DNA from: an uncultured Verrucomicrobiota bacterium | GTDB lineage: Bacteria > Verrucomicrobiota > Verrucomicrobiia > Opitutales > Seribacteraceae | Length of the DNA stretch: 64,000 nucleotides | Reading direction: 5' to 3' | Assembly: GCA_902612125.1 (NCBI GenBank) | Contig: CACMBV010000002.1 | Span: forward strand, 1-64,000 | Shown here: positions 13,936 to 58,828 of the stretch, one piece after another | Numbering within the stretch: the stretch's first letter is position 1 | Layout of the letters: every line of letters starts with the position of its first letter | Notes under the pieces: model-generated | The model's database searches: none | What the model was told of the DNA's origin: nothing | What the model saw: the letters and a program-made list of their open reading frames with translations, nothing else | Translations under genes and position numbers: made by a program

Positions 13936-15360
13936 CTATTCAAAACGAACCCTGGGGTCAACGAGAGCAACCAGGGCATCTGAAAGTATGTTTCCCAGGA
14001 GCATCAAGGATGCGGACAGGGTCAGGATTCCCATGACCACCGGGTAGTCGCGGTCGATCACTGAATTAAACCCAAGCAGACCAAAACCATCGATATCAAA
14101 AATGGTTTCGATTAGAAAAGATCCGGTAACAAAAAGCGTAACTTGATGGCCCACATTCGTGGCAAGTGGTACAAGAGAGTTCCTCAAGGCGTGCTTACGA
14201 ACCGCATTTTTAAAGGAAACACCCTTAGCCATGGCCGTGCGGACATAATCCGCCGAGAGGTTGTCCATCAAATGATTTTTCATCAGCATGGTGACAAAGG
14301 CAAAACCACCAATTAAATAACAACACAAAGGCTGAACGGTATGAGTAAGTAAATCCACCAGCCTGTCCCAGGTTCCGAGTTCTTCGAAACCATCGCTCAC
14401 CAGCCCCCCCATGGGCAAAAAATCCATGTTTACTGATAAAAAGAGAAGCAGCAGAGAACCAAGAGCATATCCAGGAACAGCATAGCCCACGAAAATCAGG
14501 ATCGAAGTCAGGTCATCAGATAGTTGTTTATGCCGGACTGCCTTGAAAACTCCAAGGGGAATACAAATTAAATAAGTTATAAAAAAAGTAAGGAGACCAA
14601 AATAGGTGGAGACCGGTAAACGTTCAGCAATAACCTGCAAAACGGATTCTCCATACCTGGTTGACTGCCCAAAATTTCCCTGGAGCACGCCTTCATATCG
14701 GGTCATAAAAAGTTCTGCTATGGGAGCTGACTTTTGAACAATTTTGTCACTTTTCCTCATCCTAACATTCCAATTTCCGAGTAATTCAGCCTCATTGAGG
14801 AATTCTACACCACCCTGATTGTCCCTGCGCAGGTCAATTCTTTCCCTGGCACCTTCTATCAAAAAATTCTTTTGCCCTGCCTCGAAGGCATCGATTTCTC
14901 CATCCTTATTCTGATCGATTTCATCGAATTTCACATATCTTGAAATCTTTTCAGGAACCTCCCCGGCCTGCACATATCCATCCCCGTCCCAATCCAATTC
15001 AGCAAGATGAAAGGTGGGAATCCGTACCCTTTCGGAAAGCTGGGTTTCAAAATTCGAAAACCTGATCTGACGAAATTCAGTTTCCCTGGGCATTATGCCC
15101 AGCCAAATGAGATAAGCCTCCCAATGGGGCCTATCAAATCCATACAAGCGCTTCATCTGCTCTAATTGTTCCTGCGATAATGCCTGATCGGAGCCCACGC
15201 CCTGTCCGCCCCCCCCGTCCTGCGAAACCTGTTGCATTTGCATCATGGCCTGCTCAAGCGGCCCACCCGGTGCCAGCCGCGTAATGGCAAAGACCAAAAC
15301 ACTGATTCCAAAAAGCGTTGGTGGAATCAGGAGCATTCTTCTTAGAAAATAATCACGCAT
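13936..15360 (-). CDS. yejB: Peptide ABC transporter permease, YejB-like, with inserted EF-hand pair
   Basis: A 474-residue permease, about 100 residues longer than usual for YejB. TM1 with 'RRMLLIPPTLFGISVLVFAI' and 'TRLAPGGPLEQ' is normal, as are the C-terminal membrane domain ('ERLPVSTYFGLLTFFITYLI', EAA loop 'YVRTAMAKGVSFKNAVRKHALRN') and end 'DALVALVDPRVRFE'. Between TM1 and TM2, about residues 85-215, lies extra sequence with two EF-hand loops: 'DWDGDGYVQAGEV' near residue 124 and 'DQNKDGEIDAFEA' near residue 150. This loop faces the periplasm. It is the first gene of the minus-strand importer operon. Calcium sensing by the loop is a hypothesis. Confidence 0.88.
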   Translation of the reverse strand: MRDYFLRRMLLIPPTLFGISVLVFAITRLAPGGPLEQAMMQMQQVSQDGGGGQGVGSDQALSQEQLEQMKRLYGFDRPHWEAYLIWLGIMPRETEFRQIRFSNFETQLSERVRIPTFHLAELDWDGDGYVQAGEVPEKISRYVKFDEIDQNKDGEIDAFEAGQKNFLIEGARERIDLRRDNQGGVEFLNEAELLGNWNVRMRKSDKIVQKSAPIAELFMTRYEGVLQGNFGQSTRYGESVLQVIAERLPVSTYFGLLTFFITYLICIPLGVFKAVRHKQLSDDLTSILIFVGYAVPGYALGSLLLLFLSVNMDFLPMGGLVSDGFEELGTWDRLVDLLTHTVQPLCCYLIGGFAFVTMLMKNHLMDNLSADYVRTAMAKGVSFKNAVRKHALRNSLVPLATNVGHQVTLFVTGSFLIETIFDIDGFGLLGFNSVIDRDYPVVMGILTLSASLMLLGNILSDALVALVDPRVRFE

Positions 15361-15454
15361 TAATTTGCTTTATTCCTATGCCGAGTGTGTCCACAGTTCA
15401 AAGCCAAAGCATCAAAAACTCAATCATTCCTCAAACCTTTTGCTTGCCAAGAGG
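15361..15454. promoter_or_regulatory. Divergent intergenic region between two peptide importers
   Basis: The 94-bp gap between the YejB-like start (minus) and the chosen start of the OppA-like gene (plus) must hold promoters for both operons. On the minus strand TTGAAC and TAGGAA are 17 bp apart, a weak sigma-70 candidate. No operator palindrome was seen. Confidence 0.3.
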
Positions 15455-17131
15455 ATGTGCCTAAACACTTTTCAAGTTATTAAAACTTTTCTTCCACGGA
15501 CTTACCCGAAATGCCCATACCTTTGGCTCGTTCTCACGCTTTTCCTGCATGGAGGATGCTCTGCTCCCAGTAATGTTGAAAATGCAATCGAGGAGCAGAT
15601 TCTTCATTTTGGCCTTGGCTCGGAGCCCCAATACCTAGACCCCCATTTAGCAAGCAGTGTTTCGGCCCACAATGTAATCAGTGCCCTCATTGAGGGGCTG
15701 GTAAGCGAAGACCCGAAGACCCTAAAACCGGTCCCCGGAGTGGCAGAAAAGTGGGATATCTCAGAAGATGGACTCCTCTACATCTTTCACCTGCGAAAAA
15801 ACGCACAGTGGAGCAACGGAGATCCAGTCACTGCCCATGATTTCGTTTATTCGTACCGGCGGATTCTTAACCCCAATCTTGCATCGCAATATGCCAGTAT
15901 GCTCCACGGGCTAAAGAATGCCAGAAAATATCATGAAGATGGGGTAAGCTGGGAAGAGGCTGGCGTGGGTGCCATTGCCCTGGATGACCACACGCTTCAA
16001 CTAACCCTGGAAAACCCCACCCCGTATTTTCTCGAACTTCTTAACCATTACAGCTGGTTCCCGGCACACCCACCAACCATCGAGAAATTTAATGCTTTCG
16101 AAAAGCAGGGGACGCCCTGGACAAGACCCGGGAATTATGTGGGGAATGGACCTTTTATTCTTACGGAGCACAAAGTTAACTCAGTCATCGAAGTCCAAAA
16201 GAATCCTCACTATTGGGATACTGAGACCGTCTTGCTGGAAGCCATTCGTTTTTATCCGATTGAAAGTGCCGATACGGAAGAAAGGGCATTTCGATCAGGC
16301 TTCCTCCACCTCACCCAAACCGTATCCTCGGACCGGATTGATTTTCTGGAACAAAATCATCCTGAATGGATTCACTTCGAGCCATATTTGGGAACCTACT
16401 TTTACCGTTTTAATCTTGAGGAACCTCCCTTTGATGATGTCCGGGTAAGACTTGCATTCAACCTGGCAACCAACCGTCAAGCCATCGTTGAAAAAGTAAC
16501 CAAAGGTGGGCAAAAGCCAGCCCTTTGCTTTACACCCCCGGGAACCGGAGGTTTTACCCCGGAATCCAGGTTTCACTTCGATCCCCAGAAAGCTAAGGCA
16601 TTACTTCAAGACTATCTGGACGAAAAAGGACTGCAGTCCCTCCCCAGGATAGAACTCAAATATAACACCTCGGAGGGTCATAAAAAGGTTGCGGAAGCCC
16701 TCCAGGGTATGTGGAAAACTCATTTGGGGGCTGAGATTCAGCTACTCAACATGGAATGGAAAGTCTTCCTCTCAACCATTGAAAAGCGAGATTTCGCTCT
16801 CGCCCGGGCCGGATGGATCGGGGATTATGTGGATGCGAACACCTTTCTCCATATGTGGAGGACGGGCGATGGCCACAATAACACCGGTTGGTCCAACGCC
16901 CGCTACGATGAATTGCTGGAGCTGGCGGCCAGGGAACCGGATCCGGAAAAAAGATTTTTACATTTTGAGGAATGTGAAAAGTTGCTTGCTGAGCATGCAC
17001 CCATCCTCCCCATTTATTTTTATGTCCATGTGACCTTAAGGAATCCCACAGTCAAAGGCTGGTACCCTACCCTGCTGGACCATCATCCCTATAAATATGT
17101 ACGCCTTGAAAGACTCAAGGGGAACAACTGA
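15455..17131 (+). CDS. oppA: Oligopeptide ABC transporter substrate-binding lipoprotein (OppA-like)
   Basis: ATG at 15455 is the first in-frame ATG; a longer TTG-initiated form from 15365 is possible but has no signal-like start. The protein (558 residues) has a long basic n-region, hydrophobic core and lipobox 'TLFLHGGC', so it should be lipid-anchored on the periplasmic side. Family 5 signatures follow: 'LGSEPQYLDPHLASSV', 'PGVAEKWDISEDGLLYIFHL', 'NAQWSNGDPVTAHDFVYSYR', 'KNPHYWD' and 'VRLAFNLATNRQAIVEKV'. It heads a plus-strand Opp operon. The stop overlaps the next start (TGATG), indicating coupled translation. Confidence 0.9.
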   Translation: MCLNTFQVIKTFLPRTYPKCPYLWLVLTLFLHGGCSAPSNVENAIEEQILHFGLGSEPQYLDPHLASSVSAHNVISALIEGLVSEDPKTLKPVPGVAEKWDISEDGLLYIFHLRKNAQWSNGDPVTAHDFVYSYRRILNPNLASQYASMLHGLKNARKYHEDGVSWEEAGVGAIALDDHTLQLTLENPTPYFLELLNHYSWFPAHPPTIEKFNAFEKQGTPWTRPGNYVGNGPFILTEHKVNSVIEVQKNPHYWDTETVLLEAIRFYPIESADTEERAFRSGFLHLTQTVSSDRIDFLEQNHPEWIHFEPYLGTYFYRFNLEEPPFDDVRVRLAFNLATNRQAIVEKVTKGGQKPALCFTPPGTGGFTPESRFHFDPQKAKALLQDYLDEKGLQSLPRIELKYNTSEGHKKVAEALQGMWKTHLGAEIQLLNMEWKVFLSTIEKRDFALARAGWIGDYVDANTFLHMWRTGDGHNNTGWSNARYDELLELAAREPDPEKRFLHFEECEKLLAEHAPILPIYFYVHVTLRNPTVKGWYPTLLDHHPYKYVRLERLKGNN

Positions 17132-45136: not shown

Positions 45137-45871
45137 TTACAAAGCAGGGCCGGTAATTTCGTCACAGGTCATGTGATAAAGTCCAACGAAAAACTCTTCA
45201 TCCCAACGCTCCTCCACACTAAACTGACCGGTAACCCGGATGATGCGATCCATCATCACCTCCACTCCTTTGGTCGCATGGACAACCACCCATCCATTGG
45301 CCTCCGGGGCCTGCCCGAAACAACAACTCATTTGATCAGGGAGTAGTAAGAATTCTTTTACTTCGTTATTTTCGTCCACAATGGTGGGTATCATAAATCC
45401 TTCGATGGCTACCAGATTTCCGGATTTATCACGCAGTCTCTTGGGTACCCGCTGGGCATAGGCAGAAAAATCAAATTCCTGTCCATCTTTCTCCCATTCC
45501 ACCACATATTCAAAATTCATCATATCGCGAAACGCTAATGGTTGATATTCACTTCCCTCTTCAAGCGGAGGGAGGTTTGAAACTTCAGGGTCTTCCGAAT
45601 TGTTGTTGTCTGCAGGCTTTGCTTGCCCTTTGACCACCAAGCCCTCTTCAAGAACTTTTCCATCGATTGTGCTGTCATTTTCGTCAGACGAAAGAACCAA
45701 GGATTGATTTTCATCAGGCACGGCTGGCTCCCTAATTTCGATAATTGGCTCGCCAACGATGTCTTTTGGAAAGTCATCTGCGGGTTCAGGGCTCTGTTCA
45801 CTGCAGCCAATTCCCAAGACTAAGATTCCCAAGAGCAAGAAAAAGTTCGAGAAATCTTTGAATTTATACAT
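45137..45871 (-). CDS. DUF3299 lipoprotein
   Basis: ATG at 45871 was chosen because it begins a lipoprotein signal 'FLLLGILVLGIGCSEQ' (Cys near residue 23); a longer frame to 45979 has no leader. The protein is 244 residues. After an acidic linker, the DUF3299 domain occupies about residues 125-240: 'GNLVAIEGFMIPTIVDENNE', 'LLPDQMSCCFGQAPEANGWV' with the diagnostic adjacent Cys pair, and 'VTGQFSVEERW'. It is the third gene after an ABC ATPase and permease on the same strand (61 bp gap). A role in metal (perhaps zinc) handling by this three-gene set is remembered from Vibrio systems but not verified. Confidence 0.82.
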   Translation of the reverse strand: MYKFKDFSNFFLLLGILVLGIGCSEQSPEPADDFPKDIVGEPIIEIREPAVPDENQSLVLSSDENDSTIDGKVLEEGLVVKGQAKPADNNNSEDPEVSNLPPLEEGSEYQPLAFRDMMNFEYVVEWEKDGQEFDFSAYAQRVPKRLRDKSGNLVAIEGFMIPTIVDENNEVKEFLLLPDQMSCCFGQAPEANGWVVVHATKGVEVMMDRIIRVTGQFSVEERWDEEFFVGLYHMTCDEITGPAL

Positions 45872-45932
45872 GAGAGAAGTTCTTAGTGATAAACGCTTCC
45901 TATGAGCAAGAAAGTTTCTTGCAAACCATGGT

Positions 45933-47153
45933 TTAGGAAATGGGTTGCAGGAGATCGACCAACTCAGAACGATAGGCATTCACGGCTGCTCCCAAACCGC
46001 CGACCAGTCCGGAAAAAATAATCGCCATGATTACCCAGAGGTCCTGTAGTTGTAAATTCATCCCGTCAAGTAATACACCAGTCTCTTCCACGATGATGCC
46101 TTGCGTGATCAACCCGATTCCCTGCATAATCAATAGGGACCCAAGGACGCCAAGAACAGAAATGATCAAAGAATGACCAAAGATCACTCCGGTCAAAATT
46201 AGCCGCCCCGAGCCCAGGCTCCGCAGGATGGCAAAATCTCTTTTCCTCATATTGAGCGAAGAGTGCATGGTTGAGGCAACCATAAGAATGCCAACCGCCG
46301 CAATCACATAGGCGATCACTTCCAGCACTCCTCGAAACCAGTTCATTTTATCAAAAAAAGAAGCCAGAGTCGCAGCAACTGGCCAGGCAAAGGTAGCCTG
46401 GTTTCCCTGCCGATTGTATCTTATCTCGAGGTTGAACCCTGTGGCTCCTTTGAGTGATAATAGGACTGCGCTGACCGACTGAGCCATTTCCTGATCATGT
46501 CCTTCCATCAGCTGAATTCCTTTGATCGGTACCCAGATCACCTTGTCACTGGGCGTTCCCGTCGCTTCAAGCAGGCCAACCACCACATACACATCCTCAT
46601 GTTGCGTATCTTCCTTAAAATTCAAACCGTGATAGGGTTGAAACTTGTCACCGATTTTAAGATTTAGTTTGTCCGCAACGAACGAACCAACCAATGCCTC
46701 CTTGGCCATTTCAGAAAAAACTCGACCTCTTCGCAATTTGTATTTCTCTCCTTTTTTCCATTCATGTTCGAAAAATAATTCAGGGTCTGTACCCACCAGT
46801 CGGTATCCTAAATAATTATCTCCCACGGCGATAGGATATGCTTCTTCAACTCCCGGAGTTTTTTTGATTAGTTCATATTGTTCCCAGGGAAGATTGCCAG
46901 GGGAAGCATCCAAGTGAAAAAGAGCGTTCAGAATGAGTTGCAGTTTTGAGCCTCTTGCTCCCAGGACCGCATCAAATCCTCCGCTCGCATTCGCAAAAGA
47001 GGTTTGGGTCTGCTTTTGAATTTTCATTGTACCCAGAAAAAGCCCGCCCGCCAAGGCTATGGAAAAAGCCGCGACTAGGGACCCAAAAAAATGTTGCCTA
47101 AAACCCTTGCTTGCCAAGAAGAAAATTAGACCAATCTTTGAATTAAGTTTCAT
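45933..47153 (-). CDS. FtsX/MacB-type ABC transporter permease
   Basis: A 406-residue permease. TM1 ('FFGSLVAAFSIALAGGLFLG') is followed by a periplasmic MacB-PCD-like domain ('GGFDAVLGARGSKLQLILNA', 'AYPIAVGDNYLGYRLVGTDP') and then three FtsX helices ('VIAYVIAAVGILMVASTMHS', 'FAILRSLGSGRLILTGVIFG', 'LWVIMAIIFSGLVGGLGAAV'). This architecture belongs to exporters or mechanotransmitters such as MacB/LolCE, not importers. It works with the ATPase encoded 8 bp upstream; the DUF3299 lipoprotein is its likely periplasmic partner. Confidence 0.88.
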   Translation of the reverse strand: MKLNSKIGLIFFLASKGFRQHFFGSLVAAFSIALAGGLFLGTMKIQKQTQTSFANASGGFDAVLGARGSKLQLILNALFHLDASPGNLPWEQYELIKKTPGVEEAYPIAVGDNYLGYRLVGTDPELFFEHEWKKGEKYKLRRGRVFSEMAKEALVGSFVADKLNLKIGDKFQPYHGLNFKEDTQHEDVYVVVGLLEATGTPSDKVIWVPIKGIQLMEGHDQEMAQSVSAVLLSLKGATGFNLEIRYNRQGNQATFAWPVAATLASFFDKMNWFRGVLEVIAYVIAAVGILMVASTMHSSLNMRKRDFAILRSLGSGRLILTGVIFGHSLIISVLGVLGSLLIMQGIGLITQGIIVEETGVLLDGMNLQLQDLWVIMAIIFSGLVGGLGAAVNAYRSELVDLLQPIS

Positions 47154-47161
47154 TTATTGAC

Positions 47162-47864
47162 TCACCCCACTTTATTGAGATCTTCCCATTTTATCGAATG
47201 TTCGAAACAACTGAAGATCCTCGGTTCATGAGAAACCACAATCAAGGCACATTGATTTTTCATACATAAAGATTTAAGCAGTTCAATCGATCGTGTCGCA
47301 TTTTCGGGATCCAGGCTGCCGGTTGGCTCATCTGCCAGAATTAATTTTGGATCATTCGCAAGGGCCCGGGCGATGCCCACTCTTTGCTGCTGCCCGATTG
47401 ACAACTGGGCAGGCAGATGATTTTCTCTTTCCGACATCCCCACGGCAAACAGTAATTCTTTCGCTCTTTGATCACTGGCATTTCCTGCCAAAGCCATTGC
47501 CACTAAAATGTTCTCCAAAGCTGTACAACCCTGAAGAAGGTGAAACGATTGAAAAACATAACCTAGCGTTTTCGCCCTCATACGGTCTTTCTCAGATTCT
47601 GAAAGTTCAGAAACTTTCGTTGCTGCAATTGATATACTCCCTGAGTCTGCTTTCATGGTTCCTGCTAAAAGATTGAGAAAAGTACTTTTTCCACTTCCGC
47701 TCCTGCCAAAAATGGCAATCTGTTTGCCTGCACCCAGGGTAAAACTCGGGATATCCACCACCTCTATATTTTGGCCATCGCTCTTCCTGAATGTTTTTTT
47801 TCAAATTCCTGACCTCCAAAAATTGAAGATCCCCATCTATCGTTTGTTTAGAAGATGCAGACAT
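47162..47864 (-). CDS. LolD/MacB-type ABC ATPase, reading frame broken at an A8 run
   Basis: The main frame (199 codons from GTG 47761) carries Walker A '[17 protein letters not shown]', signature '[15 protein letters not shown]' (Ile for the usual Gly), Walker B '[12 protein letters not shown]' and 'VVSHEP', but lacks the first two beta strands. Those are encoded upstream in another frame: ATG 47864 gives '[20 protein letters not shown]' then 'LKK'. At a run of eight T on the plus strand (47794-47801, A8 on the coding strand) dropping one A restores '[18 protein letters not shown]', exactly the missing ABC N-terminus. So the gene is intact apart from one base. It may be an assembly error, a mutation, or programmed slippage at A8. 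Confidence 0.85.
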
Positions 47865-47982: not shown

Positions 47983-48384
47983 ATGGAAAAAGGTGTAGTT
48001 AAGTGGGGGGTTATTCCCTTTCGGGGAGTTGATAATGAGAACCTCGAGTTTCTGGTTGTCTCGACCAAGAATGGTAACTGGAGTCTGCCCAAGGGTAATC
48101 CCATGAAAAAACTCGGTTCGAAGGGAACCGCTTTGCAGGAAGCGTATGAAGAAGCTGGAATCATCGGAACAGTTGTGGATCAAAAAATTTCCACTATAGT
48201 AAAAGGTAAATGTATGGCTTTTTACCCGATGGAAGTGAAAAACGAACTTGCCGTTTGGCCTGAATCTGACTGGAGACAAAGAAAATGGATTCGAACAAAC
48301 GAAGCCAAAGATTATCTTAATCACGGTTCGCTTAGATCCATTCTCAAAGAACTTTCAGGGAAACTTTTACCATCCTGTACTTGA
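47983..48384 (+). CDS. Nudix hydrolase
   Basis: ATG 47983 gives 133 residues (a GTG two codons upstream is possible). It is a small Nudix protein: 'WGVIPFRGVDNENLEFLVVS', 'NWSLPKGNPMKKLGSKGTAL' then 'QEAYEEAGIIGTVV'. The Nudix box keeps the metal-binding 'EAYEEAG' but shows Leu and Gln where the usual first Glu and Arg lie, as in diphosphoinositol-polyphosphate hydrolase-like members ('PKGxPxK...EAAxxEAYEEAG'). Such proteins cleave nucleoside or polyphosphate diphosphates. It lies 31 bp upstream of the DUF3570 gene on the same strand. Confidence 0.82.
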   Translation: MEKGVVKWGVIPFRGVDNENLEFLVVSTKNGNWSLPKGNPMKKLGSKGTALQEAYEEAGIIGTVVDQKISTIVKGKCMAFYPMEVKNELAVWPESDWRQRKWIRTNEAKDYLNHGSLRSILKELSGKLLPSCT

Positions 48385-48415
48385 CCATAATGAAGTACTG
48401 AGCGAAACCTTACTT

Positions 48416-49552
48416 GTGAAGGTTCTATCTCTTTCCCTTTGGCTACTTCTCCTTCGCCTCCTGGAAATTTCGTCCTGGGGCCAGAACTACTTACGCGGAA
48501 AGTATCGTGAATGGATCGAAGATAATGATCGGGTGGAAGTACGATCCTGGTATGCAGAAACAGAAGTTGAGCTTGAACAAGGCTGGTCGCTGGATTTCCT
48601 GGGCACAATTGATGCCTGGTCAGGAGCGACGCCGTACGGGCTGCCACCCTCTTCCGCCATCGCTGTAAATGATTGGCTGCAAATCGTACCGGAGGAGATA
48701 AGAAAAGCGGGCCTGTTTACCGTAAAGAAAGAAACCCAAAATCATGACTTTTCATTCGAATATGGAATCAGCGATGAGCCCGATTACCTGTCCCGTAGTT
48801 ATGCCGTCCAATATTCATACAAACTAGCGGCTGAGACCTTGATTGTAACATGCGGGTTTTCGTTGCAGGATGATTCCGTCAAAGACTTTACTGGAAGTTT
48901 TGTGGAAAAAAAGACCCCTTCGCTATCCGCTGGCTTAACCCGAATTCTCGATAAATTCACCAGTATATCCTTCAACTTTACCTACTCATGGCCAACCGGG
49001 TATTTAAGCGATCCTTATAAAAATACTCCACATGAAATTTTTGGAAGCATTGGTTTGGCACCTGAAAATCGTCCCGATAAACGGGAGATTTTTATCTTCT
49101 ACTCAGAATTATCCCGTTACTTGGATTCATTGAAAATAGGGACTCATCTGAGTTACAGGTATTTCCAGGATGACCACCGTTTGAGCGGTCATACCATTGA
49201 AATTGAAGCAAACAAAAGACTCGGAGAAAAATGGATACTTTCCCCGCGCTATCGGTTTTACACTCAAAATCAGACATCCTTTTATAGCCCAAAAATTCGC
49301 ACTTATGCATTCTTTGATACTTACATGTTATCACCCGATTCATCCGAAGGTCCTTTTTATTCAGCGGATCATCGATTGTCTTCCTTTGATTCACATGGCT
49401 TGGGCTTAAAACTATCCTTCTTGATGGAGGATAATCTTACCCTTGATGCAGGATACGATCGCTACCTTACTAAAGGAAATGACGGGGTAACGGATGCTCG
49501 CGTCTACCCGGACGCCAATGTTTTCACGATTGGGCTGCAATGGGAACTTTAA
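48416..49552 (+). CDS. DUF3570 family outer-membrane beta-barrel protein
   Basis: GTG at 48416 was chosen because it starts a signal peptide ('KVLSLSLWLLLLRLLEISSW'); the longer frame from 48248 overlaps the Nudix gene and is not signal-like. The 378-residue mature protein is beta-rich with 'YREWIEDNDRVEVRSWYAET', 'LDFLGTIDAWSGATPYGLPP', 'SISFNFTYSWPTGYLSDPYK' and 'KLGEKWILSPRYRFYTQNQT'-like strands, matching the DUF3570 barrel family (cut here for space). It ends in aromatic 'VFTIGLQWEL'. In many Gram-negatives DUF3570 genes travel with ApbE and DUF4266 genes, as here. Role: probable outer-membrane export/insertion component; unproven. Confidence 0.82.
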   Translation: MKVLSLSLWLLLLRLLEISSWGQNYLRGKYREWIEDNDRVEVRSWYAETEVELEQGWSLDFLGTIDAWSGATPYGLPPSSAIAVNDWLQIVPEEIRKAGLFTVKKETQNHDFSFEYGISDEPDYLSRSYAVQYSYKLAAETLIVTCGFSLQDDSVKDFTGSFVEKKTPSLSAGLTRILDKFTSISFNFTYSWPTGYLSDPYKNTPHEIFGSIGLAPENRPDKREIFIFYSELSRYLDSLKIGTHLSYRYFQDDHRLSGHTIEIEANKRLGEKWILSPRYRFYTQNQTSFYSPKIRTYAFFDTYMLSPDSSEGPFYSADHRLSSFDSHGLGLKLSFLMEDNLTLDAGYDRYLTKGNDGVTDARVYPDANVFTIGLQWEL

Positions 49553-50526
49553 CCTCTCCTTTGGATAAACCTTTTTTTTTGAGTCAGGAAAGAGATCTCA
49601 CGGTCCTCTCTTTTCAAGCTTTCGGCACTAGATGCAAGGTTAAATACTCCGCTTGTGAGTCGATCGACTTTGAATTCGCCTCGCAGAAAGTCGTTAGTTG
49701 GGTACAGGAATTCGAACAAAGATACTCCCGTTATTTGCCAAATAACTGGTTATCAAAGATCAATGAGTCGGCAGGTGAAAAACCTGTTTTGTTGAACGAA
49801 GAGGATGAAATGGTACTTAAAGCAGCCAGTTTTGCCTTCTTTCAAAGTAACCAGGCGATTGACCCTTCCTGCCTTCCACTCACCACTCTTTGGCAAGAGG
49901 CAAAAGCAAAAAATCAAGTGCCGGGAGATTTGGAAATTTGCCAAGCCAGGGATTTGGTGGATTGGCAAAATGTGCAAATTTCAGAAAAAGAGATTTACCT
50001 GCCAATACAAGGAATGGGATTGGATTTTGGAGGCTTTGGCAAGGAATACGCCGTTGATCAAGTCGCAGAAAAGCTGAAATTGCTTTCGTGCCAAAACTTT
50101 TTGGTTGATTTCGGCGGTGATATTTTTGCTTCCGGTTTTGCTTCCGAAGATGTTCCCTGGAAAATAGGCATCGAAAAACCTGTGGGAGAAGGAAGTCCCG
50201 GGTTTCTAGTCAGCCTGAGCAACCGGGCTTTGGCCACTTCCGGAAATTACCGCAGGTTTTTCGATTTGAACGGGAAAAGATATGGTCACACGGTTGATCA
50301 TAGTACGGGCTATCCCACCATTCATTCGGAACTCAGTGCCTCTGTAATAAGCCCAAGCTGCCTTAAGTCTGGAATTATTTCCACCTCTTGTTTGATGGTC
50401 GGCAAACAGGCAGGGCTTCGAATGATCGATTCGGAGTGGAATGTCGAGGGTTGTATTCAGTCATTTGATTCTCCCCTGCTCAGCAATAAATTTTATCAAT
50501 ACATTCAAAATGAAAACCTCACTTAA
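49540..50526 (+). CDS. apbE: FAD:protein FMN transferase (ApbE family)
   Basis: A 328-residue ApbE protein that attaches FMN to a Thr or Ser of target flavoproteins. Visible motifs are 'FGTRCKVKYSA', 'IDPSCLPLTTLW', 'GMGLDFGGFGKEYAVDQVAE' (FAD/Mg site), 'QNFLVDFGGDIFASG', 'RALATSGNYRRFF' and 'GKRYGHTVDHSTGYPT'. Unlike most ApbE proteins it shows no signal peptide or lipobox, so it may act in the cytoplasm. Its ATG overlaps the DUF3570 stop by 13 bp and its own 3' end overlaps the DUF4266 gene by 17 bp. The likely target is encoded in the same operon. Confidence 0.9.
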   Translation: MGTLTSPLDKPFFLSQERDLTVLSFQAFGTRCKVKYSACESIDFEFASQKVVSWVQEFEQRYSRYLPNNWLSKINESAGEKPVLLNEEDEMVLKAASFAFFQSNQAIDPSCLPLTTLWQEAKAKNQVPGDLEICQARDLVDWQNVQISEKEIYLPIQGMGLDFGGFGKEYAVDQVAEKLKLLSCQNFLVDFGGDIFASGFASEDVPWKIGIEKPVGEGSPGFLVSLSNRALATSGNYRRFFDLNGKRYGHTVDHSTGYPTIHSELSASVISPSCLKSGIISTSCLMVGKQAGLRMIDSEWNVEGCIQSFDSPLLSNKFYQYIQNENLT

Positions 50527-50731
50527 TCTATCGACCCTTCTTGCCATAATTCTCACTGGTTGCACCCCTAAGATGACGGTTAGCCCCATGGAAAGATATC
50601 ATTTAGCGGATGTGGTCATGAAAGCCGATCGCGATCCGCTTTCTCAGAAGATGAACGACCACGCTTATTTTTCAAGAGAAGGTTCAAGAGGTGGACGGGG
50701 TATAGGGGGTGGTGGTTGCGGATGCAATTAA
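50510..50731 (+). CDS. DUF4266 small lipoprotein
   Basis: ATG at 50510 gives a 73-residue lipoprotein with lipobox 'LLAIILTGC' (Cys18). The mature part has the DUF4266 pattern: 'MERYHLADVVMKADRDPLSQ', then 'HAYFSREGSRGG' and the highly characteristic C-terminus 'GGGGCGCN'. The longer in-frame ORF upstream lacks a signal. Its start overlaps the apbE 3' end and its end overlaps the next gene, so all are translated from one message. Function is unknown; association with ApbE and DUF3570 is known for the family. Confidence 0.88.
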   Translation: MKTSLNLSTLLAIILTGCTPKMTVSPMERYHLADVVMKADRDPLSQKMNDHAYFSREGSRGGRGIGGGGCGCN

Positions 50732-51819
50732 GCAAAAAAAAACTGCGGGTAATCCTGTCTTTTGCCCTGCTTGTTGAAGCCAGATCATTTGCCCCAAAAA
50801 TCATCAAAATTTCCGGACTGCTCCTCAAACCCGTACCCAGTTTTTTAAAATCCGTTCACGGGTGGATGCCGGCGACCGCTGGTGTGGTTACCACTCATGC
50901 TCTCTCCGGTGCCACAACAGAAGTAAAGTCATATCAGGGAAATTCCCTTAGTGTTAAAACTGGAGAGACTGTAAGCTTTCGATTCTTCACCTCAAGGTAT
51001 ACGGCTGGAAGCTACAGAGTTTCTGGTTTACCAAACGGGTTAAGTTATGACGGAAGAAATACTATTAGCGGATCAATCTCCGAGGCAGGCAATTATTCCG
51101 TCAACATCATTGGATATCGCGGTTACAGCCAAAACGGATCTTCCACCCCCACTTTTTTACTCAGTGTAGATGCCAGCGATCCTGTTCTACCCATAGATTC
51201 TGATGGTGATGGCGTAGATGATTCGAGTGACCAGTTCCCCGATGACCCTAAACGGGCTTCGGGTTCTGACTTTGACAGCGACGGCACCGACGATGAATTT
51301 GACAATGATGATGACAATGACGGGGTCGTCGACACTTCCGATCTCTATCCCAAGGATGCTCTGCGGGCATCAGGGAACGATGCGGACGGCGATGGCACCG
51401 ATGACGAATTCGACGGCGACCGAGACGGGGATGGCGTGGATAATACAACTGATCAGTTCCCCGATGACCCCAAACGGGCTTCCGCCGATGACTTTGCCGG
51501 TGACAGCAATGAAACAATCACAACTAATTTTTCGTCCACAACCAACTTAAGTGATAACTGGTTCGATGCCTGGTTAGGCATCTTTTACACCGCCAACAAA
51601 CAAAATTGGATCTTTCATTCTCACCTAGGGTGGTTATACATACATCCAGTTGGAAAAGACGCTTTTTGGTTTTATGATTATGACCTCGGATGGTTATACA
51701 CCTCCAAGGACTTATACCCCTATTTTTACCGAAATTCTCCAGCTGGATGGCTTTATCATTTAGCTAATTCCAAAAAAAGTCGGTTTTGGAGTTACTCGCA
51801 GGAAATCGAGTTGGAGTAA
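50722..51819 (+). CDS. Surface protein with SGAT motif, thrombospondin-3 Ca repeats and Trp/Tyr-rich tail
   Basis: ATG at 50722 gives 365 residues. The N-terminus is hydrophobic/basic but not a textbook leader. Residues 57-66 read 'TTHALSGATT', containing SGAT, the core of ApbE flavinylation sites. A beta-sandwich (putative Ig, 'VSFRFFTSRYTAGSYRVSGL', 'GLSYDGRNTISGSISEAGNY') covers about 70-150. Thrombospondin type 3-like Asp-rich repeats follow to about 260 ('DSDGDGVDDSSDQFPDDPKR', 'DADGDGTDDEFDGDRDGDGV'). The end is a Trp/Tyr-rich module, 'GWLYIHPVGKDAFWFYD' and 'LGWLYTSKDLYPYFY', of a kind seen on secreted proteins of marine verrucomicrobia. It is probably exposed on the cell surface. Confidence 0.78.
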   Translation: MQLSKKKLRVILSFALLVEARSFAPKIIKISGLLLKPVPSFLKSVHGWMPATAGVVTTHALSGATTEVKSYQGNSLSVKTGETVSFRFFTSRYTAGSYRVSGLPNGLSYDGRNTISGSISEAGNYSVNIIGYRGYSQNGSSTPTFLLSVDASDPVLPIDSDGDGVDDSSDQFPDDPKRASGSDFDSDGTDDEFDNDDDNDGVVDTSDLYPKDALRASGNDADGDGTDDEFDGDRDGDGVDNTTDQFPDDPKRASADDFAGDSNETITTNFSSTTNLSDNWFDAWLGIFYTANKQNWIFHSHLGWLYIHPVGKDAFWFYDYDLGWLYTSKDLYPYFYRNSPAGWLYHLANSKKSRFWSYSQEIELE

Positions 51820-51866
51820 CTCACCTATTATTTTAAAGTGGCTGTCGCTTCTATGCGTAACGCCTC

Positions 51867-52778
51867 ATGAATCAGGATTTCAAAAAAGTCTTCAAAACTC
51901 CCAAATATACGGGGGTAACTTTGGCTCTCCTCTCCATGTTTGTCCTGACCAGCATGATGGTCGTTTGGGACAGAATTTCGGAAAAACCGGAAAGCAAAAA
52001 TTCGCAATCACTGGAAATATTTTGTGAAACACAATTAGAGCCTATTTTTCGCCCTGCCTTTCAATCTTTTTACCAAAATACCGGTATCGGGATTAAGGTT
52101 TCATTTTTATCCAGAGAAGAAATTCAGGCTTCATTATCCAAGAAAGATAACAGGCGAGCTATCATTTTCTTAGGTGAGAATGATTATAATTCGGGGGAAG
52201 GCTTAAAAGGCAATTTTGAAGAGAAAATTGTTATTGGGTACCAGTCAGCTAAGAAGGATAAATTCGATGAAAAAAATCAGAACGGTAAATCTGTGTATTG
52301 TCTTGTAGGCAGAGTACTTAATCAACCATCTGATGCCTTTGCCCTCATCCGCTTCATCCTTTCCCCGGATCATGGCCATGCTCTTTTAACCAAAGAGGGA
52401 TTCGTCCCGCAACCCGGAGATAAGTGGGAAAGGATTCCTTTTTTATTAGTCTATGCCTCCGAAAATCAGCGTGCCTGGTTATCTCACTGTTTAAAGACCT
52501 TTTCCATTCGGGAAGGGATTCAGGTTGAGTTGAACATTCGAAGCGAACAGGGTATTGACAAAGCAGTTTCCTTGATTGCAAAAAGCCGTGCCAAGCAATA
52601 TCTTCCAGATATTGTAATCGGATGCCCCAAAATCCAAAATTACCGTGACTTGTTTTCACCCCCCCAATTTATAAATGATCAAAAGATGATGGCTCCCTGC
52701 TATATTTCTAAGACAAGTCGATACTGGCATTCTGCCCAAAGATTACTAAACGCTCTGGAAAAGTGTTCTTCCAAGTAG
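51867..52778 (+). CDS. Membrane-anchored periplasmic binding protein, ModA-like fold
   Basis: A 303-residue protein with an uncleaved-looking N-terminal helix ('GVTLALLSMFVLTSMMVVWD') and a bilobal type II periplasmic binding fold: 'SLEIFCETQLEPIFRPAFQS', 'GIGIKVSFLSREEIQASLSK', 'ALIRFILSPDHGHALLTKEG' with 'FVPQPGDKW' and 'LPDIVIGCPK'. The fold resembles molybdate/tungstate-type binding proteins (ModA), but no permease or ATPase is adjacent. It could scavenge or sense an oxyanion for the neighbouring module, or be a scaffold. It follows the surface protein by 47 bp. Confidence 0.7.
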   Translation: MNQDFKKVFKTPKYTGVTLALLSMFVLTSMMVVWDRISEKPESKNSQSLEIFCETQLEPIFRPAFQSFYQNTGIGIKVSFLSREEIQASLSKKDNRRAIIFLGENDYNSGEGLKGNFEEKIVIGYQSAKKDKFDEKNQNGKSVYCLVGRVLNQPSDAFALIRFILSPDHGHALLTKEGFVPQPGDKWERIPFLLVYASENQRAWLSHCLKTFSIREGIQVELNIRSEQGIDKAVSLIAKSRAKQYLPDIVIGCPKIQNYRDLFSPPQFINDQKMMAPCYISKTSRYWHSAQRLLNALEKCSSK

Positions 52779-52817
52779 ACTTTACGATTTGCGAAAATTG
52801 AATTTCCCTCATTTGAT

Positions 52818-53798
52818 ATGAAAATGGTTAAGCTGATTACAATCTTTTTACTGGGGTTGAATGTCGTTCACGGTGACATGGTTGATCTTGCTGCATGGGA
52901 GAAACAATCCCCAGAAGATCTCACAGACTTGCTTGCCATTCAGGAACGCCTACGGGAACTCTTACCGGATGCAAAAAAAGCCCTTGTTTCCATCGAGGCA
53001 GGAGATGGTGCAGGAAGTGGTGTGATCGTATCCAAAGAAGGACTTGTCCTAACCGCTGCTCATGTCATTGGAAAAACAGGCAAAAAAATGCAAGTTCGTC
53101 TACCAACCGGCAAACGAAATTCAGCCGTAACTTTGGGCGGATCTGAAATTTCAGATGCAGCCATGCTTAAAATCAAAGGGGAAGAGGAATGGCCATTCGT
53201 TGCTATCGCCAAAAGGGGTGAATCCAAGGTAGGGGATTGGTGTTTTGGCCTGGGGCACCCGGGTGGGTTTGATAAAGATAGAGGAATTGTTGTGCGCGTA
53301 GGTAAAATCATTGCCAAAAAAGATGAAACCATGCAGACAGACAGCCGTCTTCTTGGAGGAGATTCCGGGGGTCCCCTATTTGATTTTGATGGCCGATTAA
53401 TTGCCATTCACAGTCGGGTATCGCAAAAGCCTGACCAAAATTTTCATGTTCCAGTAGAATCTTTTCTTGCTAATTGGGAAACATTTCGCGACGAGGAACT
53501 GATTTCCTATGATATAATGCAAGACGGGGGATTCTTTGGCGTTGCCTGTGAAGAAATTGAAGCCGGCCTCATCGTTCGAGAAGTAATCCCTGGGACTGCC
53601 GCCGAAAAAGCCGGACTCAAACTCAACGATATTTTGCTAGAGGTAAATGATGAGCCTTTAGATTCAAGGGAAGAATTCATTATTATCATCTCATCCTTAA
53701 AACCCGGTGATGAGGCTAGGATTCTTTACCAACGAGATGGAGCCCAGCTTGCAGTAAAGGTAAATTTAGGAGTGCGACCAAAAGTAGCCGAAGAATGA
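52818..53798 (+). CDS. Trypsin-like serine protease with PDZ domain (HtrA/S1C-like)
   Basis: A 326-residue exported protein (signal peptide 'ITIFLLGLNVVHG'). The S1C catalytic triad is intact: His82 in 'LVLTAAHVIG', Asp113 in 'SEISDAAMLKIK' and Ser183 in 'LGGDSGGPLFDFDG'. A PDZ domain spans about 230-320 ('GFFGVACEEIEAGLIVREVI', 'GLKLNDILLEVNDEPLDSRE'). HtrA-type proteases degrade misfolded periplasmic proteins. The 4-bp ATGA overlap with the next gene couples it to a pseudoprotease, which may regulate or recruit it. Confidence 0.9.
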   Translation: MKMVKLITIFLLGLNVVHGDMVDLAAWEKQSPEDLTDLLAIQERLRELLPDAKKALVSIEAGDGAGSGVIVSKEGLVLTAAHVIGKTGKKMQVRLPTGKRNSAVTLGGSEISDAAMLKIKGEEEWPFVAIAKRGESKVGDWCFGLGHPGGFDKDRGIVVRVGKIIAKKDETMQTDSRLLGGDSGGPLFDFDGRLIAIHSRVSQKPDQNFHVPVESFLANWETFRDEELISYDIMQDGGFFGVACEEIEAGLIVREVIPGTAAEKAGLKLNDILLEVNDEPLDSREEFIIIISSLKPGDEARILYQRDGAQLAVKVNLGVRPKVAEE

Positions 53799-54787
53799 AA
53801 TTTTTTCTATCTCTCCTTGTCACCATTCCATTGCTTGGCGAAATAGAGCAACAGGACAACAACGGCTCTGGCAAAACCCTGCCTCTGAAGTATAGGCTCA
53901 ACGGGAAGTCCACTCAGGACGCGTTTGGTAAGGCAAAACATACCGCACTTGCTGCGACTGCCAAATTAACAAGGAATGATAAACTGATTGCCATGGGTGC
54001 GATTGTTAGTCCTGAAGGATATATTCTGACCAAAGCGAGTTCCTGTGTAGGTGCACGGCTTGCCACCCTTGCGAATGGCGAAATCTATCAATTACGAATA
54101 AAAAAACGTAATGAAGAGTTGGACCTGGCTTTGTACCAGATGATATCCGACAAAAAGGATTTTCCCTATGTTTCCTGGAATGAAAAAAATGCCTCGGACC
54201 AAGTCTCATGGGTTCTCTCTGCTTTCACTGAACTGGATGAAATAAGAGTTGGCATTACCAGTGGCAAAAAGAGGGAAATTGGCCGAGAAGGCGGCGTCAT
54301 GGGTGTCATTCTGGGTAATGAAAGCAAAGAAGGCGTTCGCGTTACCGAAGTCGTCCCGCAAGCAGCTGCCGATAAAGCCGGGTTGCGGAACGGAGATATA
54401 ATGCAAAAAGTGGATGGGAGAACTGTCAGAAAACGGGATCAGGTCGTGAATCTAGTTAGTAAAAAGGACCCGGGTGATGTGGTCTCGGTTGAAGTTTTAC
54501 GAAAAAATAAATCTATGAATTTCAGAATTACCCTGGGTCATCGCTCCGTTACCTTTGATCTTTTTAATCGAAACTTACAAATGAGCGGTCCTGTTTCCAA
54601 AAGGAAAGATAACTTTCCCTTGATTATTCAGCATGACCTACCACTGCCCAAAGAGGCCATGGGGGGTCCTTTATTTGATCTGGAAGGTAATTGTATAGGT
54701 ATCAATATTGCCAGGGTGGACCGGGTGACGGTTTTTTCACTACCGGCCCGTATTGCTAGCAAAATGACCACCGACTTGAAAAAGTAA
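53795..54787 (+). CDS. Catalytically dead S1C-like protease homologue with embedded PDZ domain
   Basis: A 330-residue exported protein ('FFLSLLVTIPLLGE') related to the protease upstream but inactive by sequence. The His position reads Ser82 ('YILTKASSCV' where 'LTAAHV' is expected), and the nucleophile is Met289 ('KEAMGGPLFDLEG' for 'DSGGPL'); only the Asp ('LDLALYQM') remains. The PDZ domain (about 165-245, 'EGVRVTEVVPQAAADKAGLR') lies inside the protease fold, before the 'GGPLF' part, instead of after it. It is likely a regulatory or binding partner of the active protease. Confidence 0.82.
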   Translation: MKFFLSLLVTIPLLGEIEQQDNNGSGKTLPLKYRLNGKSTQDAFGKAKHTALAATAKLTRNDKLIAMGAIVSPEGYILTKASSCVGARLATLANGEIYQLRIKKRNEELDLALYQMISDKKDFPYVSWNEKNASDQVSWVLSAFTELDEIRVGITSGKKREIGREGGVMGVILGNESKEGVRVTEVVPQAAADKAGLRNGDIMQKVDGRTVRKRDQVVNLVSKKDPGDVVSVEVLRKNKSMNFRITLGHRSVTFDLFNRNLQMSGPVSKRKDNFPLIIQHDLPLPKEAMGGPLFDLEGNCIGINIARVDRVTVFSLPARIASKMTTDLKK

Positions 54788-54795: not shown

Positions 54796-55989
54796 TTATC
54801 TCAGCGGAAACCCTAGAACGACTCGAAAGCCAATTTCAGAGCCACGCCATGAAGGGGCTGAACTTTCCCTGTTAGCAGATCTACACTCATAAGCTGTTCT
54901 ATAAAAACTACCTCCGCGCAAAACCCTGTTTTTTCCATGCAATGGACCCATGGGGTTGACTACCATGCCTTCGGGATACTCGCCGTAATAATCATAACAC
55001 CATTCCATCACACTTCCATGCATATCGAATACGCCCCAACGATTCGAAGGAAATCTTGAAAATTTCGGGCCTACCGGAATTAATTTACCTCGATTGATCA
55101 AGGTGCCCTCATCCCCCATGATGTAGTCTTCTTTACTACCATCTAAGTTGGCATTAAGACCGGAGAGCGTGTTGCCCTCACCCAAACCGCATGGTCCTGC
55201 ATTACCCGCTCGGCACGCATATTCCCATTCGGCCTCGGTGGGCAACCGGTAGATCATCCCCTGTGGAATAAGGCCGTTGCTATACCCATATTCCGTAAGC
55301 TTATGACAATATGATACTGCCTGCGTGTAAGAAACCTGATTTACGGGTAGCTGGTTTTGTCGGTCAAGTAGCGTTTGCAGGATGGTGGAATATTCGTTTA
55401 CGGTAAAATTAAGTGACTCCGCAACCTTAGTCTTGAAATTCTTTGCTACTTGATTCCAAACATTGACTAAGTGGATCATAGATCGGAGACTCATAAAAAG
55501 GGAACTAATTTCAGGATTGGTCAGTTTCTTAAAATCAGCATGCAGGAAAGGGGGTAATTTACCTTTAAGTGAAGGCTGTAAAAGGAGATTTTTATAGAGT
55601 GATAGGACTAATTCTTTCTCAGAATTTTTTAACTCGAAAGAATGATCCTTCTTGGAAGTAGCCAAGGCGTTCCACTCATTAATGGTAAGCTCGTACATTG
55701 AAATGTAATATAAATTAGATATTTGAACTTTATGCTGCCATTCGTCTAGATCCCTTCCATTTTCTCTGTCGGCACTGCCCATTAGAAACTCACCCGGCAT
55801 AATCTTTACGAATTTGGATTTAAATTCCGCGGTTTGAAGTTTGTGGAGATCTTTTTCCAAAGGCTGGAGATTGCTTTTATGCGGGAAGGGCAAAGGCAAT
55901 GGGCGGGTATTCGTTGAAGCTTTTTTATTTTCTTCCTTGGAACATGAAAGGAAGAGAACAAGAAAGATGGAAATGAAAACAAGCTTCAT
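54796..55989 (-). CDS. SUMF1/FGE-fold lipoprotein with an insertion
   Basis: A 397-residue lipoprotein (lipobox 'LVLFLSCSKE'). The formylglycine-generating-enzyme fold is split: 'IMPGEFLMGSADRENGRDLD' and 'YYISMYELTINEWNAL' come first, then about 100 inserted helical residues, then 'LPVNQVSYTQAVSYCHKLTE', 'YRLPTEAEWEYACRAGN' and 'RVLRGGSFYRTAYECRSANR' with 'GFRVVL'. Only one of the two catalytic Cys expected in true FGE is near the right place, so it is probably not a sulfatase-activating enzyme but a binding protein of this fold. It follows a two-component pair on the same strand (12 bp gap). Confidence 0.82.
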   Translation of the reverse strand: MKLVFISIFLVLFLSCSKEENKKASTNTRPLPLPFPHKSNLQPLEKDLHKLQTAEFKSKFVKIMPGEFLMGSADRENGRDLDEWQHKVQISNLYYISMYELTINEWNALATSKKDHSFELKNSEKELVLSLYKNLLLQPSLKGKLPPFLHADFKKLTNPEISSLFMSLRSMIHLVNVWNQVAKNFKTKVAESLNFTVNEYSTILQTLLDRQNQLPVNQVSYTQAVSYCHKLTEYGYSNGLIPQGMIYRLPTEAEWEYACRAGNAGPCGLGEGNTLSGLNANLDGSKEDYIMGDEGTLINRGKLIPVGPKFSRFPSNRWGVFDMHGSVMEWCYDYYGEYPEGMVVNPMGPLHGKNRVLRGGSFYRTAYECRSANRESSAPSWRGSEIGFRVVLGFPLR

Positions 55990-56001
55990 CCAAAATCAAG
56001 A

Positions 56002-57657
56002 CTACGCCTGAGTCATTGGTAATTTAATATAAAAAGTGGTGCCTTCACCCTCAACGCTTTCGAACCAAATCTGCCCATTGTGAGACTTGACTACCACGTT
56101 GTGAGCAATGGCCAAGCCCTGACCTGTTCCGACTCCGACTTCTTTGGTAGTGAAAAAGGGTTCGAAGATTCTTTCCTGTACCATGGGGGGGATACCTCCT
56201 CCATTATCGGTAATTGAAATGACCACGCAGTCATCCGAAGGATAATACCTGGTTTTTATATTAATTTCACCCTTTCCTTTTGACTCAGAACGGTCGCGAA
56301 TGGCGTGTGCCCCATTCACAATTAAATTCAAGACCACTTGGTTAATTTCTCCAACATTACAGGGTACCATTGGTAGACTTTCGTCCAAACCCGTAATTAC
56401 CTCCGCATGATACTTCCATTCATTCGTGGCTACCACGATGGTCGACTTAATTGCCTGATTGAGATCATTGGGTTTCTTGGCTGATTCCGCATCCCGGTAG
56501 GCAAAATTTTTCATGGACTTTACGATGGTCGTTATGCGTGAAATTCCTTCTTCAGCTTGCTGGACCGCCTCAGGGGCATTTTCCGTCAAGAAGGAAAGTT
56601 CCTTATCATCAGGAGCCCGGTTGGAACCGGAAATTTTGGAAATAAATCCTTCGATTGCCTCTTTAAGAAAAAGGATGTTGTCGTTAGCGAATTGAGAAGG
56701 CGAATTGATCTCATGGGCGATTCCTGACGCCAGTTGCCCTACTGCTTCCATTTTTTGGGCATGAACCAGCTGGGTCTCCAACTCTTTTCTCTGTTTAATT
56801 TCCAACTTTAATTGCTCAGTCTTTTTGACTAAAGCGGATGTTCTTTGTTTAACGGTAACTTCCAATCCATTAATCAGACCCTGCAATCTTCTCGTAAGTG
56901 ACTTAACCTCCTCCGGCCCAATTTCAGGAGAATTAAAAGCCTGATTATTTTCAATGGATCTGGCGGCTGCCTCTTCAAGCCGGGAAATCGGCCGGGCAAA
57001 ACTGCGATAGGTTACAAAGGCCAATCCAATAATCAGGGCAAGATATAAAATACTTACGGTAAACAAGGATAATCTGCTATTTTGCTCACGGGCATCGAGT
57101 TCTTGCCACTTCACCCGTAGGGATTCATTGGCATTTTGTAAGCTTTGTAACGCTTGCATCTCCAAATAGTCTAAATTGTTTTTTAGTGTCTCCCGCACGG
57201 AGTCGTACTTATTCCTAGCCAAGGCATTACCTCCAATCCAATTTTCATTTTTTGGAGACGGTTGCAGCTTCTGCATTTGGGAGATGGCACTTTCCATTTC
57301 CCTAATCCCTTTTGCGATCGGAAGCATAATTTCATCAGGAAAATTTTCGTGATATAAGTCAGATAACTTGTTGGCACCCTCTTTGGAAAGGGCAATGGCA
57401 TCATTGGCTATACTAAAGACACCATCATAATCCTTGGGATATATCTCCATGGTCACAAAAATCCCTCTGGTGGTTTCAAGAAAAGCCATAACATCGGCAT
57501 GTCGACTGGAGGAGGATCCTGACTTTTGGGCCTCTTGTTCAAGCTCATCCGTGGCCTTATTTAATCCCGAGAAGGTAAACCAACCAAAGATTGCAATGCA
57601 TAAGGCTCCGATAAGACTGCCACTGGTGAGCAGCACGATATAGCTTCGTACTCTCAC
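56002..57657 (-). CDS. Sensor histidine kinase
   Basis: A 551-residue inner-membrane kinase. TM1 is at about 8-30, a periplasmic helical sensor region to about 195, TM2 at 196-218 and a HAMP segment after it ('[18 protein letters not shown]'). A coiled-coil leads to the HisKA box '[18 protein letters not shown]' with the phospho-accepting His near residue 314, as in the NtrB/LuxQ-like class. The ATPase domain has N box '[17 protein letters not shown]', G1 '[11 protein letters not shown]' and G2 '[15 protein letters not shown]'. It is co-transcribed with the response regulator upstream (22 bp) and the SUMF1-fold lipoprotein downstream. Confidence 0.92.
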
Positions 57658-57679
57658 TTTAACACATCATAACTGCATG

Positions 57680-58828
57680 TTACTTTATAAAATTTAGCGG
57701 AACCAGAACCTGTATTTTTTTGGGGAACGGGCTATCTTCGTAGCATGAATTATAATTACGGATAACCTTAAGTAGCTGCCTATCCACATCGGTCCCGGCA
57801 GCCGCAATTAAAAAACCATCGTCAAGCCTCAACTCCTGTGACAACCTCATACCAATATCAATATCCGCAATGCTTATTTCCTGCAGGCTAGAAGTCTCCT
57901 GCGCGATTACAATTAAATCGGAAAGAGAATTAGTGACCTTCGGATCGTAATCCTTTTCCCTCTCCTTGAGCGTGTTGACGATGAGACTTCGATTATATCC
58001 TTGTTCTTCGTAATAATCGAAATCTAAAGCTACCTTCAAAATGGATGCCGCAATCCGTATCCCATCTTCTTTTTCCTGTTCAAACCGATATTGGACATCT
58101 ACACTTTTAAGAATTTCCCCCACTTCTTCCAGCCCTGGAATTTTGTTAAGTATATTTCTTGTATCTTCGGGAAATTTTGCCAAAAGGGTTTTAACTTCCT
58201 TGGTTAACTCTTTTCGGTAGTACACATCTTCAGTTACATTCTCAGGTAATGCCAAATAAGCAAGTTGGGAAAAAACCGACGCGACATCGACTCGCCAGGA
58301 ATGCGGGATTGCTAGTTTTTCGGCAAGTTCGTTCGCCATTCTACGAACCCGTTGTACCCTGCCAAAAAAAAGCGGTTTTGCAGTTGATAATGATTCAGCC
58401 AAGGCATCCACAGCTCCTCTGAGAGTTTGATCCAGCAGGATTCTCTTACTCTTGACCAAATCATGCTGCTCAAGTCCATCATTTAGAACTTTAATCAGTC
58501 GTTCAGGTGGACAGGGCTTGGAAAGCATACGGAAAACATTTCCGTCATTCACAGCCGCCATCGCTGAATCAAAATCGGTATGTCCTGTCAATAAAATCGT
58601 GGACACTTCATGGTCTCTTTTTTTGATCTCCGCCAACATATCCGCCCCATTCATCCCGGGCATCCTCATATCGGAAAGAACCAAGGCAAAACCACCTTCC
58701 TTTTCAAAAACCTCAAGACCTTCCATTCCATCGGAAGCTAAATGTAATTCGAAATCTTTACGCAAATTTAACTGGAATCCTCTGAGAATAGAATCCTCAT
58801 CATCTACGCACAATATTTTATTGTTCAT
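57680..58828 (-). CDS. Response regulator with C-terminal helical (degenerate HD-like) domain
   Basis: A 382-residue regulator. The receiver domain (1-125) has the acidic pair 'CVDDEDSILRG', phospho-acceptor Asp53 in 'LVLSDMRMPGMNG', Thr81 in 'TILLTGHTD' and Lys104 in 'MLSKPCPP'. From about 130 on comes a helical domain resembling HD-GYP proteins in layout ('AVDALAESLSTAKPLFFGRV', 'RVRRMANELAEKLAIPHSWR') but lacking the HD and GYP motifs, so it is not expected to hydrolyse cyclic-di-GMP. No DNA-binding domain is present. It precedes its kinase in the same operon. Confidence 0.88.
   Translation of the reverse strand: MNNKILCVDDEDSILRGFQLNLRKDFELHLASDGMEGLEVFEKEGGFALVLSDMRMPGMNGADMLAEIKKRDHEVSTILLTGHTDFDSAMAAVNDGNVFRMLSKPCPPERLIKVLNDGLEQHDLVKSKRILLDQTLRGAVDALAESLSTAKPLFFGRVQRVRRMANELAEKLAIPHSWRVDVASVFSQLAYLALPENVTEDVYYRKELTKEVKTLLAKFPEDTRNILNKIPGLEEVGEILKSVDVQYRFEQEKEDGIRIAASILKVALDFDYYEEQGYNRSLIVNTLKEREKDYDPKVTNSLSDLIVIAQETSSLQEISIADIDIGMRLSQELRLDDGFLIAAAGTDVDRQLLKVIRNYNSCYEDSPFPKKIQVLVPLNFIK

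Follow-up and report, generated by a model that had tools for sequence, protein, structure and literature searches.

The window analysed here (the first 64,000 nucleotides of contig CACMBV010000002.1, from an uncultured member of the Verrucomicrobiota placed in the Opitutales and Seribacteraceae, its named relatives being marine Opitutales/Opitutia) carries a four-gene cassette encoding a DUF3570 protein, the flavin transferase ApbE, the small lipoprotein DUF4266 and a surface protein, here called X. The preferred reading, to which a probability of about 0.6 is given, is that these four genes constitute the functional unit and that X serves as a second, N-terminally tagged surface substrate of ApbE in a flavin relay. 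X appears to be a conserved fourth protein of the cassette and previously undescribed, as nothing resembling it was found in the literature searched on flavinylation, DUF3570 and DUF4266. DUF3570 systems are known as electron-transfer sets without a described cell-surface partner, and a protein with a flavinylation-like site at this position bears on the question of where the flavins go. It is about an even prospect that X represents a new class of ApbE substrate, namely surface immunoglobulin-like (Ig-like) proteins with a short N-terminal tag that are flavinylated by a cytosolic ApbE before export, which would place covalent flavin on the verrucomicrobial surface beside a flavinylated outer-membrane barrel.

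The first three genes are adjacent in the window, as in published flavinylation clusters, where DUF3570, ApbE and a DUF4266 protein with a C-terminal CxC are accompanied in most, though not all, cases by a thioredoxin-like protein and often by DsbD (PMC8238504). For a DUF3570 protein from Chlorobium luteolum, flavinylation at [S/T]GA[S/T] sites by the cognate ApbE has been demonstrated (Meheust et al. 2021, PMC8238504). The initial annotation of this DNA had correctly recognized the three genes as a known set, but its statement that the set has no established function does not agree with that work.

Linkage and architecture of protein X

An association of the three core genes with a surface protein bearing an SGAT motif had also been proposed in the initial annotation, and this neighbourhood is retained across the order and also in another order of the class. 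Of the 20 loci from the window's family, 19 have X immediately 3′ of DUF4266; in the remaining one (L035) an X-like open reading frame (ORF) lies about 5 kb away. Among the other families of the order, where the comparison, as elsewhere, draws on a sampling of metagenome-assembled genomes, X occupies the same position in 27 of 38 DUF4266 loci; it stands further along the operon in the same direction in L087, L090 and L101, and elsewhere in the genome for most of the remainder. Across 373 genomes of the order, an N-terminal profile of X (A3) was detected in 73, DUF4266 in 71 and both in 70 (Fisher p ~5e-71, a value that ignores shared ancestry), with only 3 of the 302 genomes lacking DUF4266 containing the profile. 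When counted by genus, X is present in 25 of 100 and DUF4266 in 24 of 100. A 388-genome sample of the phylum yielded six genomes with an X match from other families of the class, and X directly follows DUF4266 in all six. Distances between X sequences are correlated more closely with those of ApbE (r 0.92) and DUF3570 (0.88) than with those of the downstream HtrA-like proteins HtrA1 (0.75) and HtrA2 (0.48). X is linked to apbE, as is expected of an ApbE substrate.

The protein is arranged as an N-terminal signal or anchor region, a GAT motif, an Ig-like domain, a variable linker and a C-terminal Trp/Tyr 'GWLY' domain, and in distant families Ig and NHL repeats follow the motif. No Pfam family was matched at E values up to 1, hence no match to FMN_bind was obtained. 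In the structural model, the Ig-like domain (75-152) has a high predicted local distance difference test (pLDDT) score, with low confidence for the motif region and the C-terminus, and a structure search related this domain to adhesin domains such as SraP. Calcium repeats, noted in the initial annotation, are present in the linker of the window's protein and absent from the 18 orthologues aligned (A2); a calcium-repeat function for X has been rejected on these grounds. The C-terminal Trp/Tyr domain (51538-51819) recurs at 18 other places of the same genome, in ORFs of up to ~3,450 residues, which makes it a general module, possibly one for surface sorting or anchoring, that has no Pfam name. 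At L069:3305-4951 and L070:3225-4871 the X gene is duplicated in tandem, and both copies carry HATAGAT.

The N-terminal motif of X

An alignment of 27 diverse X N-termini has only Gly-Ala-Thr as an invariant element, and this motif is still kept where most of the region is just 14-35% identical to that of the window. In order to avoid circularity, a motif-blind profile was built solely on the columns that precede the motif, and GA[T/S] was found at the expected place in 117 of its 120 matches. Among the unique X sequences (n=116), the final Thr or Ser is present in 116 and the Gly in 112, the four without Gly having [ST]AA[TS]. The resulting consensus, [HNDQ]-[SAT]-[LV]-[AST]-G-A-[TS], can be set beside the ApbE consensus D-x-x-[ST]-G-A-[ST], for which replacement of the Asp has a minor effect, a change of Gly to Ala roughly halves flavinylation, and short tags have been reported to work best at protein ends (PMC12052999). 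The DUF3570 proteins of the same loci carry D-[AST]-x-[AST]-G-A-[TS]-P-x-G in nearly all cases, and in X itself the canonical Asp is found in five of the six genomes that represent other families of the class, where the motif is D-[TS]-V-[TAS]-G-A-T (for example DTVTGAT and DSVSGAT). As far as can be judged from sequence, each position of the X motif would have its counterpart in the ApbE consensus and in the site of DUF3570.

The main rival explanation, which is considered unlikely, takes [AST]-G-A-[TS] as a signal peptidase I site ending a signal of about 60 residues (LLQRTP...GAT), so that X would be exported and not flavinylated. A hydrophobic or amphipathic stretch does precede the motif. 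Signal peptidase I, however, requires neither a Gly at -2 nor a Thr or Ser at +1, and both are kept at the frequencies given above; distant members carry the canonical Asp, and in family f1 there is another plausible cleavage region just past an invariant Pro50. A generic export signal would furthermore be expected in genomes without the cassette, and this candidate is disfavoured by the near-confinement of the X N-terminus to genomes with DUF4266. Still less probable is the suggestion that X is a structural or adhesive surface partner of DUF3570 and DUF4266, with an unmodified motif through which it would dock to ApbE or the barrel. Its tight co-occurrence and co-evolution with the cassette agree with such a role, as do its C-terminal domains, which vary (Ig, NHL and GWLY types) and resemble those of adhesins, and the likeness to SraP. 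Against it stand the constant final hydroxyl residue, which a modified acceptor would require, and the parallel of the motif with the sites of DUF3570 and of ApbE substrates in general.

Several observations weigh against X as an ApbE substrate in a flavin relay. The canonical Asp is mostly replaced by His, Asn or Gln (at n=112, His 59, Asn 27 and Asp 20), and the position before G-A is Ala in 54 and Ser or Thr in 52 of 112, although Ala occurs in DUF3570 of these genomes as well. The pattern is compatible with signal peptidase cleavage, with Ala, Ser or Thr (rarely Val) at -3 and always Ala at -1. In family f13, the best sampled, the first Ser/Thr/Ala letter of X agreed with that of DUF3570 in 15 cases against 15.6 expected; letter co-variation, considered as proof of a shared enzyme, was set aside, with a signal between families and none within f13. 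Outside the class, none of the 13 loci compared has X adjacent to DUF4266, which indicates that the core works there without it. Finally, unlike the published clusters, the window's own genome (64% complete) gave no DsbD_TM match, and DsbD as candidate electron donor is thus unsupported.

The flavinylation core and a possible flavin relay

The DUF3570 protein carries a site of its own, DAWSGAT, in addition to the SGAT of X; this site had gone unmentioned in the initial annotation. Across 14 aligned orthologues, G70, A71 and T72 are invariant and S69 nearly so, and the site matches the class shown to be flavinylated (PMC8238504), which makes it a predicted flavinylation site. An AlphaFold2 model of the protein is all-beta (pLDDT 69.5, predicted template modelling score 0.62), with porins such as OmpC as its best Foldseek matches (E 1.9e-8), and Thr72 is located at a strand end in this predicted structure. 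Its N-terminus is signal peptide-like. By a hydropathy test, which here stands in place of a trained predictor, a hydrophobic N-terminal stretch was found in none of 68 ApbE proteins of related DUF3570 loci and in most DUF3570 and DUF4266 N-termini. The absence of such a stretch holds for every ApbE of the DUF3570 loci within L031-L155, even though the predicted substrates are exported. DUF4266 ends in GGCGCN and has the CxC of the published clusters. Two further ApbE genes are present in the window's genome (G000 C1:171172-172005 and C5:88126-88965), and in two loci of other classes, L157 and L158, DUF4266 directly precedes a barrel-like protein that contains SGASGDY and may be a further DUF3570-like type.

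In the proposed mechanism, ApbE without a signal peptide would attach flavin mononucleotide (FMN) to the Thr or Ser of the [AST]GA[TS] motif in two exported proteins, the first being the DUF3570 barrel, for a relative of which this has been shown, and the second X. Since ApbE lacks a signal peptide and its predicted substrates are exported, modification before export is implied, which raises the question of whether flavinylation in the cytosol is followed by export to the outer membrane. X may then be displayed as an Ig-like surface protein, with its flavin tag near the mature N-terminus, beside the flavinylated barrel. The CxC lipoprotein DUF4266, together with a TlpA-like thioredoxin where present, could feed or drain electrons, and the set would work as a relay based on flavins that either crosses the outer membrane or is located at it.

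This arrangement shares with the clusters of PMC8238504 the same three families and a DUF3570 protein with a flavinylation motif, and in distant loci of the order (such as L086) a TlpA-like thioredoxin is still encoded between ApbE and DUF4266. It differs from them in that no thioredoxin-like gene is found in the window's cassette, in that each DUF3570 has a single motif where two had been reported, and in having a fourth conserved gene with a motif of its own. Like the substrates DUF2271, Flavodoxin_4 and FMN_red (PMC8238504, PMC11334425), X is apbE-linked, lacks an FMN_bind domain and has a motif akin to [ST]GA[ST]; unlike them, it carries this motif ahead of an Ig-like domain and not on a flavin-binding fold, with the Asp and the first Ser/Thr relaxed. 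A cytosolic ApbE from Klebsiella, as cited in PMC12052999, acts on a soluble fumarate reductase and, as far as that citation goes, resembles the window's enzyme in having no signal peptide; in contrast to the soluble fumarate reductase, the substrates predicted here are exported, and their modification would precede export.

The resident locus around the cassette

Eight plus-strand ORFs are present at 47983-54787 (Table 1), and their close packing, with overlaps of 13, 17, 10 and 4 bp, was found as originally described. The DUF3570 start is the GTG at 48416, backed by alignment, and for this reason the gene does not overlap the Nudix gene.

Table 1. Features of the cassette and of the flanking resident locus, in window coordinates
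Feature	Position	Strand	Evidence	Remark
Nudix-like protein	47983..48384	+	weak Pfam match, 20.6 vs cut-off 21.1 bits	resident locus, outside cassette
DUF3570 protein, predicted outer-membrane beta-barrel	48416..49552	+	Pfam PF12094 7e-50	
Predicted flavinylation site D66-A-W-S-G-A-T72 of DUF3570 (DAWSGAT)	48611..48631	+		
ApbE flavin transferase, predicted cytosolic	49540..50526	+	Pfam PF02424 4e-64	
DUF4266 small lipoprotein, C-terminal CxC (GGCGCN)	50510..50731	+	Pfam PF14086 2.7e-19	
Surface protein X	50722..51819	+	no Pfam family; position 3′ of DUF4266 and Ig-like domain	
H59-A-L-S-G-A-T65, predicted ApbE site in X	50896..50916	+	motif-blind profile	
Asp-rich thrombospondin type 3-like repeats in X linker	51199..51500	+		window-only insert
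Reduced ModA-like binding protein with membrane anchor	51867..52778	+		resident locus
HtrA-like protease (HtrA1), H82-D113-S183 intact	52818..53798	+	Pfam trypsin-like plus PDZ	resident locus
HtrA-like pseudoprotease (HtrA2; His to Ser82, Ser to Met289, PDZ inserted)	53795..54787	+		resident locus

The initial annotation regarded all eight genes as a single module for the production, export, anchoring and quality control of a surface flavoprotein. Their packing is consistent with this, as is the recurrence of the cassette followed by the binding protein and the HtrA pair in 12 other loci from genera g1 and g3. However, three loci of the same genus, L243 (genome G018), L244 (G030) and L245 (G021), hold the Nudix, binding protein, HtrA1 and HtrA2 genes with nothing between the first two. 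Their order is that of the window, from PPI, DUF3299, FtsX-like and FtsE-like genes through these four, and a sulfatase-modifying-factor-like protein, a histidine kinase and a response regulator follow HtrA2. The insert of the window relative to these loci is exactly the four genes of the cassette, which in G018 and G030 is found elsewhere in the genome; no DUF3570 match was obtained in G021. Conversely, the cassette occurs without HtrA genes in L032, L033, L035, L039 and L047, and genomes without DUF3570 keep the HtrA pair, the pseudo-HtrA having been found in 9 of the 10 members of the genus that were searched, with or without DUF3570. As loci hold either half alone, the eight-gene module is refuted as a necessary association and is very improbable as a functional unit. 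The Nudix, binding protein and two HtrA genes are a separate resident locus around the cassette, and conserved adjacency to the three-gene core extends to the surface protein and not to these four. As a unit of four genes, the cassette turns up at various locations; in a joined ApbE and DUF3570 tree, the relocated cassettes of G022, G039, G035 and G018 group with outgroup families, some branches being weakly supported, and are separate from the main-locus type.

The description of an HtrA-like protease with an inactive partner stands, and Pfam supports both proteins as HtrA-like. His, Asp and Ser are kept in 13 of 13 HtrA1 sequences, and HtrA2 of the window, with Ser82, Asp110 and Met289, has no catalytic His-Asp-Ser triad; the aligned orthologues all have Ser or Ala in place of the His and Met in place of the Ser. 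The binding protein, on the other hand, is not the orphan it had been called. In the sister genus g3 (L048), a tandem SBP_bac_11 binding protein of 494 residues is followed by a permease, an ATPase and the HtrA pair and preceded by a ThiF-like gene. The SBP_bac_11 match of the window's protein is sub-threshold (E 0.12) and that of the g3 form over threshold; the window's protein aligns to both halves of the binding protein in L036 at 1e-9, and those of its genus align to the g3 tandem form. The g3 genes resemble ModABC-type importers in Pfam domains and gene order, which is the sense in which 'ModA-like' is used here, and the window departs from such importers in keeping a reduced binding protein only, with permease and ATPase gone. 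Sequence comparison favours the view that the window's binding protein is what remains, in reduced form, of a ModA-like importer. In L048 the ThiF-like gene and the importer with its tandem binding protein lie at 12862-16716, between X and the HtrA pair.

Two gene sets flank the resident locus. At 45137-47761, on the minus strand and divergent, DUF3299, an FtsX-like permease and an FtsE-like ATPase are kept beside it in the genus; this set matches zrgE-zrgB-zrgC, which belong to the Zur regulon in Vibrio (PMC9817125), and its ATPase and permease are similar to the Pseudomonas pair PA4064-PA4065 (PMC11481552). On the other side, at 54796-58828, convergent genes on the minus strand for an FGE-sulfatase-like protein, a histidine kinase and a response regulator stand beside the HtrA pair in most of the genus members examined.

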